Assembly (NCBI GenBank): GCA_022821085.1
Contig: JAJEEG010000006.1
Span: 186,001 to 250,000 of the forward strand
Length of the DNA: 64,000 nt
Source: Candidatus Latescibacterota bacterium
GTDB taxonomy: Bacteria > JAAXHH01
Direction of reading: 5' to 3'
A program made the position numbers and the translations under genes. Below the pieces are notes generated by a model. It was given only the letters and a program-made list of their open reading frames with translations, ran no database searches and had not been told where the DNA came from. Position 1 is the first letter of the stretch; each line of letters begins with the position of its first letter. Positions 10,817-18,058 of this stretch are shown here, piece after piece.

Positions 10817-12025
10817 ATGGGGATTTACCAGTTGAAAAGCCCGGCGCGGATCCTGGTTTCCTTTGCCGTGGCGCTTCCGGCCGTGCTTTGCATGGGCTTC
10901 GCCTCCGCGCAGGAGTCCGACGAGCATCCCGGCGAGAAATCGTTGCTCCGGTTTATTGAAGTCGGGGGTGTGGCGGAGGTAACCGTATCGCGCAATCAGG
11001 TGTCCGAGGGAGAAAGCTCCACGTCCACGGCGGCCGAACAGTTGGAAATGGGCGTTGGCATCGAGCCCCACCCATGGATCGGATCGGAGTTCGGATGGAT
11101 TCACGAGCACGAAGAAGATCACGGGGAAGAAGAAGAAGAAGAGGGGCACGGCCTGGGGATCTTTACGGGCACGATCATCGTCGGTCCGCCCGATGGCCGC
11201 TGGTGGCTGAAAGGCGGCGTGCAATTCCTGCCCTTCACCATGTTCGAACTGGCCGAAGTCCACGCGGCGCACGATGCCAGTATCGGTCCCTTCGAGACCG
11301 GCGCGATTGTCGATCCGCTGTCCTTCGAGTACGGATCCAAACGGGAGAAGTCCCTTCTGCTGGGCGTTTCAATCGGCCAGTTCCTGGGCAGCGTCTACGG
11401 GTACCGTGGGGACGATGCGCGATCGGATGAACCCCGGTCCGGTTTCGGCGCCGCGGTGGGTTACAAGAAGCACGTGGAGGAGGAAGAGGAAATCGCCTTC
11501 AACCTGTCGTATATCGATGACCTGGGCACGCTGGCCAGTTTTCAGGAAGAGGTGTTCGGACACGAGGAGGAAGCGCGCGCAGAGGATGCACACGGAGCGG
11601 GTCACAGCGGGCCGCCTGTCGACAGCGATGAACGGATGCCCGGATGGTCTGCGGCTACGGCCATTCACCTCCGCGGTGTCGCGTTCTCCGCCGAGTACAT
11701 GATTTCCCAGGATCGATACGCGCCCGGCGTGCTGGCGTTCGATGGCCGGGGCGCCCGCCCGGCGGCCTGGTCGCTGGAGGCCGGCTATGGATTCGAACTG
11801 GCGGGAAGGGGTGGGGAACTAACGCTGGGGTACCAGGGTACATCCGAGGCGTCAGGACTCGGCCTGCCGTCGCTTCGTTACCTTTCCGTGCTCACGGTCG
11901 ATGTCTGGAAGGACACGCTCTTCGGCACGTTTGAATGGATTCACGACAGAGCATACGGGACGGCCAGCGGTGGAAACGGCGAGTTCAGGAACAAATACAC
12001 CCTGCAACTTGGCCTGGCGTTCTGA
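10817..12025 (+). CDS. LbtU-family siderophore porin-like outer-membrane protein
   Basis: 402 residues. A signal peptide (residues 1-33, ending FASAQ) precedes a predicted beta-barrel. Features shared with LbtU-type porins are GGVQFLPFTMFE, followed by IVDPLSFEYG and the strand-rich VSIGQFLGSVYGYRGD. Two surface-loop segments are extremely acidic and histidine-rich: HEHEEDHGEEEEEEGHG near residue 95 and GHEEEARAEDAHGAGHSG near residue 250. These suggest metal binding. LbtU itself takes up legiobactin in Legionella; the substrate here is unknown. It has its own promoter and is monocistronic. Confidence 0.65.
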   Translation: MGIYQLKSPARILVSFAVALPAVLCMGFASAQESDEHPGEKSLLRFIEVGGVAEVTVSRNQVSEGESSTSTAAEQLEMGVGIEPHPWIGSEFGWIHEHEEDHGEEEEEEGHGLGIFTGTIIVGPPDGRWWLKGGVQFLPFTMFELAEVHAAHDASIGPFETGAIVDPLSFEYGSKREKSLLLGVSIGQFLGSVYGYRGDDARSDEPRSGFGAAVGYKKHVEEEEEIAFNLSYIDDLGTLASFQEEVFGHEEEARAEDAHGAGHSGPPVDSDERMPGWSAATAIHLRGVAFSAEYMISQDRYAPGVLAFDGRGARPAAWSLEAGYGFELAGRGGELTLGYQGTSEASGLGLPSLRYLSVLTVDVWKDTLFGTFEWIHDRAYGTASGGNGEFRNKYTLQLGLAF

Positions 12026-12093
12026 GCAGCAGGCAAAGGCCGACACGTGCTACGCCCGGTCGTTTTCCACCAGCCGGATTCCGCCAGCCGCGA

Positions 12094-12348
12094 TCAGTGC
12101 ATGGCGATCCCATCGCCGAAGGGCGTGGTCGGAATGTGCCGCTCGTTGAGAGCCATTCCCAGGCGGGACAGGCCTTCAGGATCTCCCCAGGCCAGGACCG
12201 ACTTGCCGGCGCGGGTTTCGTCCAGCACGCGGCTGATGCACCGGCTGTAGAAGGGCTTCGCCGGAAACATCACGCTGACCCGGTCCGAGTCTCCACGGCA
12301 CCACTTGAACACCCTGTTGCCTTCGAATCCGCGGTAAATCAGGACCAT
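12094..12348 (-). CDS. Small hypothetical protein with own regulated promoter
   Basis: 84 residues, no recognised family, no signal peptide or membrane segment. Evidence that it is a real gene is contextual. A ribosome binding site AAAGGGGG lies six bases before the ATG. A consensus promoter (TTGACA, 17, TATCTT at 12391-12419) would start transcription about 36 bases upstream, and that promoter is overlaid by a perfect palindrome. The protein has two cysteines (WCRGD and YSRCIS) and is moderately basic. Confidence 0.5.
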   Translation of the reverse strand: MVLIYRGFEGNRVFKWCRGDSDRVSVMFPAKPFYSRCISRVLDETRAGKSVLAWGDPEGLSRLGMALNERHIPTTPFGDGIAMH

Positions 12349-12390
12349 ATTCTACCCCCTTTCCGAAAGCATCCCCGGACTACTAAACAA

Positions 12391-12436
12391 AAGATAAGCA
12401 CAAATCGACGATTTGTCAACTTTTTGTCGATTTTTG
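12391..12436 (-). promoter_or_regulatory. Promoter overlapped by operator-like palindrome
   Basis: Minus-strand TTGACA (12419-12414), a 17-base spacer and TATCTT (12396-12391). A perfect 8+1+8 inverted repeat, ACAAATCG/CGATTTGT, covers 12400-12416, overlapping the -35 and spacer. Another GTCGATTT at 12426-12433 repeats the half-site in inverted orientation. This is the classical arrangement of a repressor site over a promoter. The downstream gene is the 84-residue protein. Confidence 0.6.
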
Positions 12437-12633
12437 CTGTGAAATCCGGACTAAGAACGCGTTTTTTCTAAGGATTCCGAAATCCGTGCCGAAATCCCTG
12501 CCGCATTCCGTGCGAATGGACGTTGAATCCCTGTAAACGCGATCCTCGATGCATGTAAACGCTATAGTCGGAAAAGGCCTGCGTTTGCCCGTAGAAAACA
12601 AAAACCGGTCTTCGAAGGGTATGGGTCTCCCGA
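12420..12633. other. Spacer between HAAO gene end and the small gene promoter
   Basis: Apart from the second operator half-site at 12426-12433, this holds no gene. TGTAAACGC occurs twice (about 12531 and 12553). A T-rich stretch (minus strand) about 30-40 bases beyond the HAAO stop could help transcription end, but no convincing GC hairpin precedes it. Confidence 0.4.
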
Positions 12634-13158
12634 TCACCCGCTTTCCGGTTTCGGCATGACCGCGCCGCAGATCCTGCAGGTACGGTGATTCTCGCTGCTG
12701 AAGAACCGGTTCATGACGGGCGGCAGCTGGCTGACGATGTCTTCCAGTTCGAAACGCTCCTCGTAGAGTTTCTCTCCGCAGCTTTCGCAATACCACATGA
12801 ACCCGTCGATCTCACCGCTTCTCCGCTTGGTTTCCATGACCAGGCCCACGGTGTCCGCCGGTCTCTGGGGCGAATGGGGAACGCCGGCCGGCAGCAGGAA
12901 GATCTCGCCTTCCCGGATGTGGATGTCCACGGGCTTGCCGTCGTCGATGATCTTCAGGACGATGTCGCCCTCCACCTGGTAGAAGAACTCTTCGCCTTCA
13001 TTGTAGTGGTAGTCCTTTCGGGCGTTCGGTCCGCCGACGACCATGACGATGAAGTCTTCGGCCTCCGTATAGACGCACTGGTTGCCGACCGGAGGTTTGA
13101 GCAGGTGCCTGTGTTCGTCTATCCAGGCCTTGAAGTTGAATGGAGCCGTTACGGCCAT
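12634..13158 (-). CDS. 3-hydroxyanthranilate 3,4-dioxygenase
   Basis: 174 residues, normal for the bacterial enzyme. It opens the ring of 3-hydroxyanthranilate to 2-amino-3-carboxymuconate semialdehyde. The catalytic iron site of the cupin is seen in DYHYNEGEEFFYQVEG (His and Glu) and PAGVPHSPQRP (His). The C-terminal rubredoxin-like iron site is seen as CESCG and CRICG. AAGGAGG lies seven bases before the ATG. It is the last gene of the kynurenine operon, and its product is the substrate of the ACMSD encoded at the operon's head. Confidence 0.95.
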   Translation of the reverse strand: MAVTAPFNFKAWIDEHRHLLKPPVGNQCVYTEAEDFIVMVVGGPNARKDYHYNEGEEFFYQVEGDIVLKIIDDGKPVDIHIREGEIFLLPAGVPHSPQRPADTVGLVMETKRRSGEIDGFMWYCESCGEKLYEERFELEDIVSQLPPVMNRFFSSENHRTCRICGAVMPKPESG

Positions 13159-13174
13159 GATCGGACCTCCTTGT

Positions 13175-13588
13175 TCAGATCGTAGCGATGCATTTCAATT
13201 CGATGGCAATTGGGGTGGGTAGCCGGGAAACCCCGACCGTGGTGCGGCAGGGCTGATGCTCCTTGAAATACTCGCGGTAGATCCTGTTGAATGCCGCGAA
13301 GTCTTTTTCCATGTCGGTAAGGTACACGGTGATGTCCACGAGGTTCTCCCAGGCGCTGCCCGCGTCTTCCAGGATGGAGCGGACATTGTGGAAAACGGCG
13401 TGGCACTGCTGCTCGATATCGTAGGACGCGATCTCACCGTCCGGCCCCAGGGTCACGCCCGGTATGTCCTGACGGCCCCTGGCGCGGGGCCCGATGCCCG
13501 ACAGGAACAGCAGGTTCCCCACCCTTCGGGCATGGGGATAGGGTCCCACCGGCTCGGGGGCCCGATCGGAATCGTAATGCTGTTGCAT
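13175..13588 (-). CDS. RidA-family 2-aminomuconate deaminase
   Basis: 137 residues. RidA/YjgF fold with GPYPHARRVGNLLFLSGIGP at the N-terminus and the conserved arginine in CRTTVGVSRLP. In 2-nitrobenzoate and tryptophan degraders, RidA relatives encoded beside ACMSD and aminomuconate-semialdehyde dehydrogenase deaminate 2-aminomuconate. The position between the dehydrogenase and dioxygenase genes supports that role over general imine detoxification. The assignment to the deaminase rests on context. Confidence 0.82.
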   Translation of the reverse strand: MQQHYDSDRAPEPVGPYPHARRVGNLLFLSGIGPRARGRQDIPGVTLGPDGEIASYDIEQQCHAVFHNVRSILEDAGSAWENLVDITVYLTDMEKDFAAFNRIYREYFKEHQPCRTTVGVSRLPTPIAIELKCIATI

Positions 13589-13631
13589 GGCCGTGTCTCC
13601 GCGTTCCGCCTGGTCCAGGGGATACCGTCCG

Positions 13632-15071
13632 CTACATCTTGATGCACACGTTCTTGGGCTCCGTGAAGAACCGAAGGGCCTCGAATCCTCCCTCGCGGCC
13701 CACGCCCGACTGCTTCATGCCGCCGAAGGGCGTGCGGAGGTCCCGCAGCATCCAGCAGTTGATCCAGATAATGCCCGCGTGCAGGCGCTCGGCCACGCGG
13801 TGGGCGCGGCCCAGGTTCTCGGTCCAGACCATGGCGGCCAGGCCATAGGGCGTGCCGTTGGCCCGGGCCACTGCTTCGTCGTCGGAATCGAAGGGCAGGA
13901 GCGTCACCACGGGACCGAAGATTTCTTCCTGGTTGGTCCGGCAGTCCGGCGGCAGGCCTTCGATTACCGTGGGCGCGACAAACCACCCGTCCCGGCAACG
14001 GCCGTTTACCCGCACCCGTTGCCCGCCGCACAGGATCCGTCCGCCTTCTTCCCGAGCCAGTTCCACGTAGGACAGGATCTTGTCCATGTGCGCCTCGGAC
14101 ACGACGGCGCCGAGCCGGTTGCCGGCCTCCCTCGGGTCCCCGACGACCAGGCGGCGGGTCCGTTCGACGAAATCGTCCCGGAAGGTCTCGTACAGGGACC
14201 GTTCGACGAGGATGCGCGGACCGCACAGGCAGATTTCTCCCTGGTTGGAGAAGGAGGACAGCAGGGCGGTCTGCAGGGTGTCCTCGTAAGGACAGTCCGC
14301 GAATACGATATTCGGGTTCTTGCCCCCCAGCTCGAGGGAGACGCGCTTGAAGTTCGGCGCGGCCGCGGCAGCGATGCGCCTGCCCGTCGCCGTCCCGCCC
14401 GTGAAGGAAACGACCGGGATGCCGGGATGGTCCGCCACGGCAGCGCCCGCCTTGTGGCCGAGGCCGTGCACGATGTTCAGCACCCCGGCGGGCAGTCCCG
14501 CTTCGATGCATATCCTGGACAGCAGGAACGCGGTCGAGGGCGTCAGTTCCGACGGCTTGCCGATCACGCAGTTGCCGGCGGCAAGGGCCGGCGCGATCTT
14601 CCACGTCAGCAGGTAGAGGGGCAGGTTCCAGGGGGAAATGCACCCGGCGAGGCCGATCGGCGCCCGGAGGGTGTAATTCAGGGCGGTACTGCCCATGGCG
14701 TGGGCGTCGCTGGCGAAGTGCTCGATGGCCGTCGCGTAGAACCGGAAATTGCTCGCGGCGCGGGGGATGTCCACCGTTTCCGCCAGGGCCACCGGCTTGC
14801 CCGTATCGTCCGATTCCGCCCGGGCCAGTTCCTCCCGGTTCTCCTCGATCAGGCCGGCGATGCGGAGGAGGTGGCCGGATCGTTCCTGGACGGACAGGGA
14901 CGACCAGGCCGGAAAGGCCTTTTCCGCCGCGACGACCGCTTCCTCCACGTCCGGCGTGCCGGAGTCGGGCATCCTGCCCATCACGGCGCCCGTGGCGGGC
15001 TCGATATTGTCCAGGTAAGCGCCGCCGGCCGGTTCGCGCAATTCGCCGCCGATGTAGTTGAGTACATGCAT
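13632..15071 (-). CDS. 2-aminomuconate-6-semialdehyde dehydrogenase
   Basis: 479-residue NAD-dependent aldehyde dehydrogenase. The catalytic cysteine lies in SNQGEICLCG and the general-base glutamate in VSLELGGKNP; the coenzyme site includes SFTGGTATGR. The best specific assignment is oxidation of 2-aminomuconate (or 2-hydroxymuconate) semialdehyde, because ACMSD and a RidA deaminase flank it in one pathway. The start codon ATG 15071 has only a weak ribosome site. An internal promoter lies in the 154-base gap upstream. Confidence 0.9.
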   Translation of the reverse strand: MHVLNYIGGELREPAGGAYLDNIEPATGAVMGRMPDSGTPDVEEAVVAAEKAFPAWSSLSVQERSGHLLRIAGLIEENREELARAESDDTGKPVALAETVDIPRAASNFRFYATAIEHFASDAHAMGSTALNYTLRAPIGLAGCISPWNLPLYLLTWKIAPALAAGNCVIGKPSELTPSTAFLLSRICIEAGLPAGVLNIVHGLGHKAGAAVADHPGIPVVSFTGGTATGRRIAAAAAPNFKRVSLELGGKNPNIVFADCPYEDTLQTALLSSFSNQGEICLCGPRILVERSLYETFRDDFVERTRRLVVGDPREAGNRLGAVVSEAHMDKILSYVELAREEGGRILCGGQRVRVNGRCRDGWFVAPTVIEGLPPDCRTNQEEIFGPVVTLLPFDSDDEAVARANGTPYGLAAMVWTENLGRAHRVAERLHAGIIWINCWMLRDLRTPFGGMKQSGVGREGGFEALRFFTEPKNVCIKM

Positions 15072-15142
15072 ATTGCTACGAAACCGCCGGGAATGTGGTG
15101 TTGGATTGGTCAGGCCAGGTGCGCCACGCCAAGTAACAAATC

Positions 15143-15171
15143 AATGTAGACCAGGCCCGCAGCCCTGTCAA
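15143..15171 (-). promoter_or_regulatory. Internal promoter of the lower kynurenine genes
   Basis: Minus-strand TTGACA (15171-15166), exactly 17 bases, then TACATT (15148-15143), in the gap between kmo and the dehydrogenase gene. It would let the dehydrogenase, deaminase and dioxygenase be expressed apart from ACMSD-kynU-kmo. Confidence 0.55.
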
Positions 15172-15225
15172 GCCGGCGGACGGCCGTCCAGCGCGATCAC
15201 CCTGCCATGTACAGGCTGCCGGTCG

Positions 15226-16677
<1,452 letters not shown>

Positions 16678-16714
16678 GAGAACCCTCGATTGCTTCCGGA
16701 CCGGTACGAAAACA

Positions 16715-16795
16715 GGTTCGCCCGGTTCACCCGGCACGCTCGACAAACCCGGCCCGGCTGACCCGATCGGTTCACCCGGCCCGCTCAGCCCGCTC
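16715..16795. repeat. Degenerate 9-bp array across the kynU/kmo junction
   Basis: Nine diverged 9-bp units such as GGTTCGCCC, GGTTCACCC, GGCACGCTC and GGCCCGCTC, in continuous phase. The array fills most of the 94-base kynU-kmo gap and runs into the last codons of kynU (ERAERAG). The units resemble those inside kmo and in the GT9 leader. Confidence 0.75.
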
Positions 16796-18058
16796 CATGC
16801 CCTCCGCCATGACCTCCACGAAACGGCGGACGTCCACAAAACGGTTGTACAGCGGTACGGGGGCGACGCGGATCACGTCGGGCTCCCGCCAGTCGCACCA
16901 GATGCCGCACTCGGACAGATGCCGGTGCACGCGGCCGCCCCGCGGCCCCGTCCGGAGCGAAAGCTGGCATCCCCGCTGCTCCGGGTCGGATGGCGTGATG
17001 ATGGACAGGTCATCCGGAAAGCGGTCCCGGAGCAATTGTTCCAGGTATCCGGTCAGTCCTCTGCTCTTCGCGCGCAGCCGGTCCATGCCCGCCTCGTCGA
17101 AGAGCTCCAGGGAGGCGCGCAGGGCCGCCAGCGGGAGAATGGGCGGATTGCTGAGTTGCCAGCCTTCCGCGCCCGGGATCGCCTCGAAAGCCGGGGGCAT
17201 CCGGAACCGGGTGGACTTGTCGTGTCCCCACCATCCGGCGAACCGGGGCAGGTCGTCTCTGCGTCCGTGCCGTTCGTGGACGAAGCACCCGCCTACGCAG
17301 CCGGGTCCTCCGTTCAGGTACTTGTAGGAACACCAGACGGCGAAGTCCACGTCCCAGTCGTGCAGCCGCAGCTCCAGGTTTCCCATGGCGTGGGCGAGGT
17401 CGAACCCCACGACGCAGCCCTGCCGATGGCCCGCCGCGGTGATCCGGTCCATGTCGAAGGCCTGGCCGGTCAGGTAGTTCACTCCGCCCAGGAAGACCAG
17501 GGCGATGGACTCTCCCTCCCGTTCGAGCAGTTCCTCGATGTCCCCGGTACGGACCATGTCCTCCCCTTCCCGAGGCCGCAATTCGATCACGCTATCCGCG
17601 GGGTCGAAACCGTGCCAGGCCGCCTGCGAGGCGACGGCGTACTGGTCGGAGGGAAAGGCGGCCCCTTCGACGAGGATGCGGTATCTCTCCGGGGTCGGAC
17701 GGTAGAAGGAGACCATCATCAGGTGGAGATTCACCGTGAGGGTGTTCATGGCGACGACTTCGCCGGGCAGGGCGCCGGCCAATCGGGCCAGCGGATCCGC
17801 CAGCGCTTCGTGGTAGGGCATCCAGGGATTCTCCCCCTTGAAATGCCCTTCGACGCCGAGGTTCCGCCAGTCGTCGAGCTCCCGTTCCACGTATTCCCGA
17901 GCGACTACGGGCTGGAGTCCGAGCGAATGGCCCACCAGGTAGACCGCATCCGCCCCGTTTCCGGTCCTCGGGAAGTGAAAACGCGACCGGAAAGCCGAAA
18001 TCCCGTCCCTGGCATCCATCTCGCCGGCATCCATTCGCTGTTCGGGTCGCGTGTCCAT
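16772..18058 (-). CDS. kynU: Kynureninase
   Basis: 428-residue PLP enzyme of aspartate-aminotransferase fold that cleaves (3-hydroxy)kynurenine to (3-hydroxy)anthranilate and alanine. The PLP lysine is in CSYKYLNGGPG; FDLAHAMGN, the VGHSLG N-terminal loop and RFAGWWGHDKSTRF are kynureninase signatures. ATG 18058 lies just after the upstream ACMSD stop (TAG at 18061-18063), suggesting translational coupling. Its C-terminus ends inside the degenerate 9-bp array. Confidence 0.95.
   Translation of the reverse strand: MDTRPEQRMDAGEMDARDGISAFRSRFHFPRTGNGADAVYLVGHSLGLQPVVAREYVERELDDWRNLGVEGHFKGENPWMPYHEALADPLARLAGALPGEVVAMNTLTVNLHLMMVSFYRPTPERYRILVEGAAFPSDQYAVASQAAWHGFDPADSVIELRPREGEDMVRTGDIEELLEREGESIALVFLGGVNYLTGQAFDMDRITAAGHRQGCVVGFDLAHAMGNLELRLHDWDVDFAVWCSYKYLNGGPGCVGGCFVHERHGRRDDLPRFAGWWGHDKSTRFRMPPAFEAIPGAEGWQLSNPPILPLAALRASLELFDEAGMDRLRAKSRGLTGYLEQLLRDRFPDDLSIITPSDPEQRGCQLSLRTGPRGGRVHRHLSECGIWCDWREPDVIRVAPVPLYNRFVDVRRFVEVMAEGMERAERAG

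Follow-up and report, generated by a model that had tools for sequence, protein, structure and literature searches.

A small gene family of one candidate bacterial phylum with a well-kept sigma-70-type promoter and a probably incidental promoter palindrome

The locus and its features

The window is the whole stretch of DNA that was analysed, 64,000 nucleotides long. The gene under study is an ORF of 84 amino acids with an ATG start codon, occupying 12348 to 12094 of the minus strand. It has the following features, in order of coordinates.

12094-12348, minus strand: protein-coding gene of 84 aa for a small alpha/beta protein (ORF, homologues, purifying selection, structural model)
12355-12364, minus strand: ribosome-binding site GGAAAGGGGG, upstream of the ATG
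12382-12389, minus strand: TGTTTAGT, one base past the -10 box, identical in 13 of 13 orthologous promoters
12391-12396, minus strand: -10 box TATCTT, identical in 13 of 13 orthologous promoters
12400-12416, no strand: 17-bp perfect palindrome ACAAATCG-A-CGATTTGT, exact; dyad not kept in relatives, probably incidental
12414-12419, minus strand: -35 box TTGACA, with five of six positions unchanged across 13 orthologues and a constant distance of 17 bp to the -10 box
12420-12437, minus strand: A-rich stretch before the -35 box, holding the half-site of the original prediction; 8 of 22 positions invariant in 10 promoters of the genus

The original prediction, made from this DNA alone, had described a small gene with a good ribosome site under a TTGACA-17-TATCTT promoter overlapped by a perfect palindrome and a further half-site. 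These elements are all in place: the promoter runs from 12419 to 12391 on the minus strand, the palindrome is exact, and the half-site CGATTTTT at 12428-12435 agrees in 7 of 8 letters. The predicted distance of 36 bases between promoter and ORF held in part, the -10 box lying 42 nt from the ATG and the value of 36 fitting a transcription start about 7 nt past the -10 box. No intrinsic terminator was identified by a simple scan around the gene, and Rfam gave a single match over 11900-12800, far below the cut-off. The gene is apparently transcribed alone.

On the same strand, positions 12634-18058 hold a run of kynurenine-degradation genes, where 3-hydroxyanthranilate dioxygenase (3-HAO) was identified by a Pfam match and RidA, a semialdehyde dehydrogenase, a monooxygenase and kynureninase by reading. 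The FAD-binding monooxygenase ORF (15226-16839, minus strand; kynurenine 3-monooxygenase by reading) contains in-frame Gln-Ala-Gly repeats in its N-terminal part.

Coding conservation and distribution

Homologues with conserved coding sequence, the check that the original prediction had called for, were identified by profile in 14 of the 16 searched genomes of the phylum; in the family 12 of 14 genomes gave relatives. The own genome is counted in both cases. Comparison of the window gene with nine orthologues of the genus gave dN of 0.005-0.082 against dS of 0.18-0.54 over the first 82 codons (45 pairs computed, values listed from 11), and most of the changes lie at third codon positions. By this measure the gene is under strong purifying selection. 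That the ORF is spurious and lies beneath a chance promoter would suit its shortness and the want of a named family, but this can practically be dismissed given its conservation, dN far below dS, its kept position and a GC content by codon position that resembles that of the neighbouring genes.

The window gene itself, as an orthologue, is present in 13 of the 16 genomes. G015 has a gene of the paralogue type alone, sharing 69% identity with the paralogues and 45-47% with the orthologues of the window gene. The gene was missed in G006 and G012 (87% and 90% complete). The neighbouring 3-HAO gave no match in these two genomes either, in a search run without a positive control, so that the misses are compatible with an assembly gap; a real loss is also possible.

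Outside the phylum nothing convincing was identified in 272 genomes, in a loose first look at 288 relatives that scored at most 18 candidates per genome. One candidate there (G045, E 0.0056 over 39 positions) was dropped, having a stop within the match. Exact peptide patterns run against 84,980 species genomes hit seven loci, all within the phylum already covered and none in a new one; one of them, JAAXHH010000034, belongs to the genus of the window. In viral contigs no relative was found with three queries, by a method that reaches mainly close relatives, and plasmids and phages gave only partial matches to the window protein (E 0.2-0.8). In a review (PMC11382960) JAAXHH01 is listed as Candidatus Ifutiota, with genomes of 3.06-6.06 Mb from freshwater, marine and sponge sources. 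The phylum of the window and of the searched relatives is probably Candidatus Ifutiota.

Neighbourhood, paralogues and a prophage-borne relative

The neighbourhood was compared at 16 loci, which include some places fetched twice and the three paralogues. In 11 of the 16 the 3-HAO gene is found on the 5' side; one of the 11 is L041, from another family, where 3-HAO, a cupin gene and dus still flank the gene. Exceptions are L027 and L016 (genome G013, g3), where 3-HAO was not found and only the cupin is kept, L027 covering 3.2 kb on that side. Dus and the cupin are next in most loci, not in all. A porin-like gene, so named by reading and without a Pfam match, was found only within the genus and is lacking from L026 (g2), which covers 5 kb on each side. 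Judged by these loci, the neighbourhood of the gene is partly kept.

The paralogue clade is formed by L017, L018 and L040, which sit at other genomic places. L017 adjoins genes matching the C-terminus of the succinate dehydrogenase flavoprotein and an iron-sulphur subunit, and the neighbours of L040 are alike by reading. L018 has a pyridine nucleotide-disulphide oxidoreductase (lipoamide dehydrogenase by reading) on one side and an iron-type alcohol dehydrogenase on the other. The promoters of these paralogues keep a differing block of their own, from about the -35 box (GACATTA) to past the -10 box.

A diverged homologue (L044:1501-1755) was identified in a genome of the same genus (G009:C1), among the early genes of a prophage-like region (L059:6136 onward, L060). 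The surrounding genes include terminase, portal, head and neck genes, and the other half of the contig is chromosomal by reading. This copy is 34% identical over 60 residues and scores 35.6 bits against a profile built without it, where the best of 5000 shuffles reached 11.6. It stands within the row of phage genes, 36 nt past the preceding gene, and lacks the promoter of the cellular gene. Searched against phages it gave no match. In the protein tree two starred branches belong to the paralogue clade, and a very long branch leads to the prophage copy.

The protein

The product has 9.5 kDa and a predicted pI of 9.2. It has no significant match in Pfam, PHROGs, NCBIfam or PDB sequences, as the original prediction had anticipated in assigning it to no known family. 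Weak matches were dropped: PHROGs (E 0.13-0.48), the YfkB-type models of NCBIfam and Pfam (E 0.11-0.14), an insect TPR model (E 0.19) and PDB 2aeg (E 0.16). DUF2007 (PF09413, putative prokaryotic signal transducing protein) matched one of ten family members at a non-significant E of 0.078, whereas the window protein and eight other members gave no match.

The best AlphaFold2 model, from 17 sequences, has a pLDDT of 89.7 and a pTM of 0.81 and shows the order E-H-E-H-E-H-E; the other four have mean pLDDT of 86.1, 76.0, 74.6 and 73.7. The protein is accordingly predicted to be a minimal alpha/beta domain. Ten residues are invariant in all 17 aligned sequences (M1, F8, F14, W16, V26, P29, A30, W54, G55 and D56), of which F8, P29-A30 and W54-G55-D56 lie at the ends of strands 1, 2 and 3 in the model. 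Strand ends are the usual ligand-binding place in alpha/beta proteins of this type.

Structural neighbours are weak, the best Foldseek E being 0.06, and the best match in a viral fold library (E 0.048) is an unnamed phage protein of 110 aa with 18% identity. The highest Z, 9.5, is to a designed protein. P-loop kinase-like and designed alpha/beta folds (PDB 4j29 and 9drz) resemble the model in arrangement across 81 and 83 residues, with Z of 9.5 and 8.0, but identity is only 7% and 12%, and the window protein is shorter and lacks a Walker A motif. Z values near 8 are common for small models without a clear match, and the likeness may reflect just a common arrangement. By reading, no Walker A motif of the form [AG]x4GK[ST] follows strand 1, as a P-loop NTPase would have. 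The only GK[ST] (48-50) is found between helix 2 and strand 3; position 43 is D, and position 50 is S, N, A or T in the alignment.

The promoter and its conservation

TTGACA-17-TATCTT, on the minus strand, is the sole promoter-like match in 11900-12800, where 0.3 were expected in the promoter scan. It agrees with the sigma-70-type hexamers in 10 of 12 letters, and its spacer of 17 bp falls within the 16-18 bp of this class. The orthologous promoters comprise 13 sequences, excluding the three paralogues and the prophage-borne copy. All 13 have a spacer of 17, an invariant CTTATCTT and, one base further on, TGTTTAGT; none of 18 positions further upstream and none of 9 in the left half of the spacer is invariant. 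Judging from these alignments, the conserved promoter element is CTTATCTT.TGTTTAGT and not the palindrome. The A-rich stretch at 12420-12437 may be UP-element-like.

The pattern TTGACA-N-TAT-N-GTTTAGT was identified in the genome only as the window's own copy. A second place for CTTATCTTWTGTTTAGTA (two mismatches) was taken as chance, the control also giving one per strand; by reading it falls in a gap between two minus-strand genes, is directed away from them and lacks a -35 box.

A promoter resembling that of the window, TTGACAAATCGCCGTTTAGCGTGTATTTT, belongs to a gene with both YicC Pfam domains (L073:970-1065, G000:C6), and its spacer is kept in 12 of 12 genomes of the genus (L082-L096 compared). 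TTGACAAATCG is constant in all 12 versions, with no dyad kept. A pattern fitted to both promoters finds exactly these two without mismatch in the genome; with up to three mismatches allowed it finds 12 places forward and 7 in reverse (control 3 and 5), a count that is not independent, the pattern having been fitted afterwards. An AAATCG motif common to the two promoters in the genome of the window is possible. These letters vary in the orthologues of the window gene (AATTTG, AAATG, ATTAG and others).

The palindrome and a possible dedicated regulator

The palindrome is locally unusual, without enrichment over the window. Perfect palindromes with 8-bp arms and a 1-base centre occur twice in the window, and 20 shuffles gave 1.7 on average; with gaps of 0-9 the window has 14 and the shuffles a mean of 19. 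In 3000 shuffles of the 285-bp intergenic stretch such a palindrome arose in 4.9% (gaps 0-9) and 1.0% (gaps 0-1). This local chance of 1-5% leaves room for a site peculiar to the genome of the window, that is, a true operator of recent origin in the species, where a dimeric repressor would cover the -35 box and spacer and control the gene. Perfect arms over the spacer favour such an operator, as do seven promoters of the genus, that of the window included, with 6-8 of 8 pairs matching. The full series for the ten genus promoters, window first, is 8, 6, 6, 6, 7, 7, 6, 5, 6 and 4, to which the ACA of the -35 box contributes, helping the three outer pairs. The left arm drifts without compensation, however: in pairs 5 and 7 the right letters are fixed but the left ones vary, with complementarity in 4 of 10 promoters; in pair 6 the right letter varies too (complementary in 6 of 10). 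Beyond the genus the three promoters keep only 3, 3 and 1 of 8 pairs, so the dyad symmetry of a repressor operator is not kept among the orthologous promoters. The regulon search that had been proposed found only the palindrome's own place at up to two mismatches, with no second site such as a regulon would have. At up to three mismatches the genome has 14 such places and the backwards control 3, a contrast in favour of the operator, but all 13 others, inspected with about 1 kb on either side, carry three mismatches, and dinucleotide shuffles of the window (0.19 matches per 64 kb) scale to about 11 per genome, which places the 14 near chance. One of the 13 lies in a promoter-like pair in the same register, before the yicC gene; that promoter has no dyad, and its centre differs in 4 of the 12 versions from the genus. 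The operator is on balance quite improbable, and the tight control that the original prediction had read from the palindrome is not borne out. The palindrome is probably a chance feature peculiar to the genome of the window.

Another candidate site is TGTTTAGT itself. Each of the three orthologues from outside the genus has a TGTTTAGT-like sequence in its spacer as well, 22 bp upstream of the conserved one; the mismatches number 0, 1 and 2. Two copies 22 bp apart (two helical turns) could be where a dedicated regulator, perhaps the 84-aa protein itself, originally bound, and the genus would have kept the downstream copy only. The presence of that copy in all 13 promoters and an invariant -10 box that is TATCTT and not the consensus speak for such a site. 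Against it, the three promoters are homologous, and the tandem pattern occurs at 4 places in four genomes (one beyond the three promoters) against 7 for the backwards control, a count not above chance that leaves place and exactness as the points in favour. Moreover, the functionally unrelated yicC promoter is also kept through its spacer and past the -10 box in 12 of 12 genus genomes, TATCTT recurs in two yicC versions outside the genus (L094 and L096), and the predicted fold has no helix-turn-helix. With the yicC promoter kept about as closely, ordinary core-promoter conservation would be at least as good an explanation of CTTATCTT and TGTTTAGT as a regulator's site. Because of the backwards control and the yicC comparison, the regulator's site is considered unlikely. 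For the same reasons a bolder proposal is very doubtful, namely a core binding protein, specific to the phylum, that has tandem TGTTTAGT copies around its own -10 box as a dedicated site and of which a resident phage carries a version acting on the same cellular target.

Interpretation

The reading preferred here, at a probability of about 0.6, is a real gene with its own well-kept sigma-70-type promoter, encoding a small alpha/beta protein found here in one phylum that acts as a binder or adaptor, with a palindrome due to chance. Sequence comparison shows that the gene is conserved and under purifying selection, that its synteny is partial, that its promoter is conserved and that its relatives lack the palindrome. 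The promoter would drive the 84-aa gene by itself, with a transcription start near 12384 (minus strand), some 36 nt ahead of the ATG, and the palindrome would be a chance arrangement made partly of letters fixed by the -35 box. The product would be a strand-helix-strand-helix-strand-helix-strand protein, as modelled, in which the loops conserved where the strands end (Y5 to F8, P29-A30-x-P32 and W54-G55-D56-P57) may form a pocket or face for a small molecule or a partner protein. With such a putative pocket or face, the protein would be more a binder or adaptor than a classical enzyme.

The original prediction was right on the gene and probably wrong on the palindrome; a perfect palindrome over a promoter can mislead until relatives are compared. 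An anonymous ORF is now a defined gene family, present in most of the searched genomes of one candidate phylum, and its prophage-borne relative offers a handle on function.
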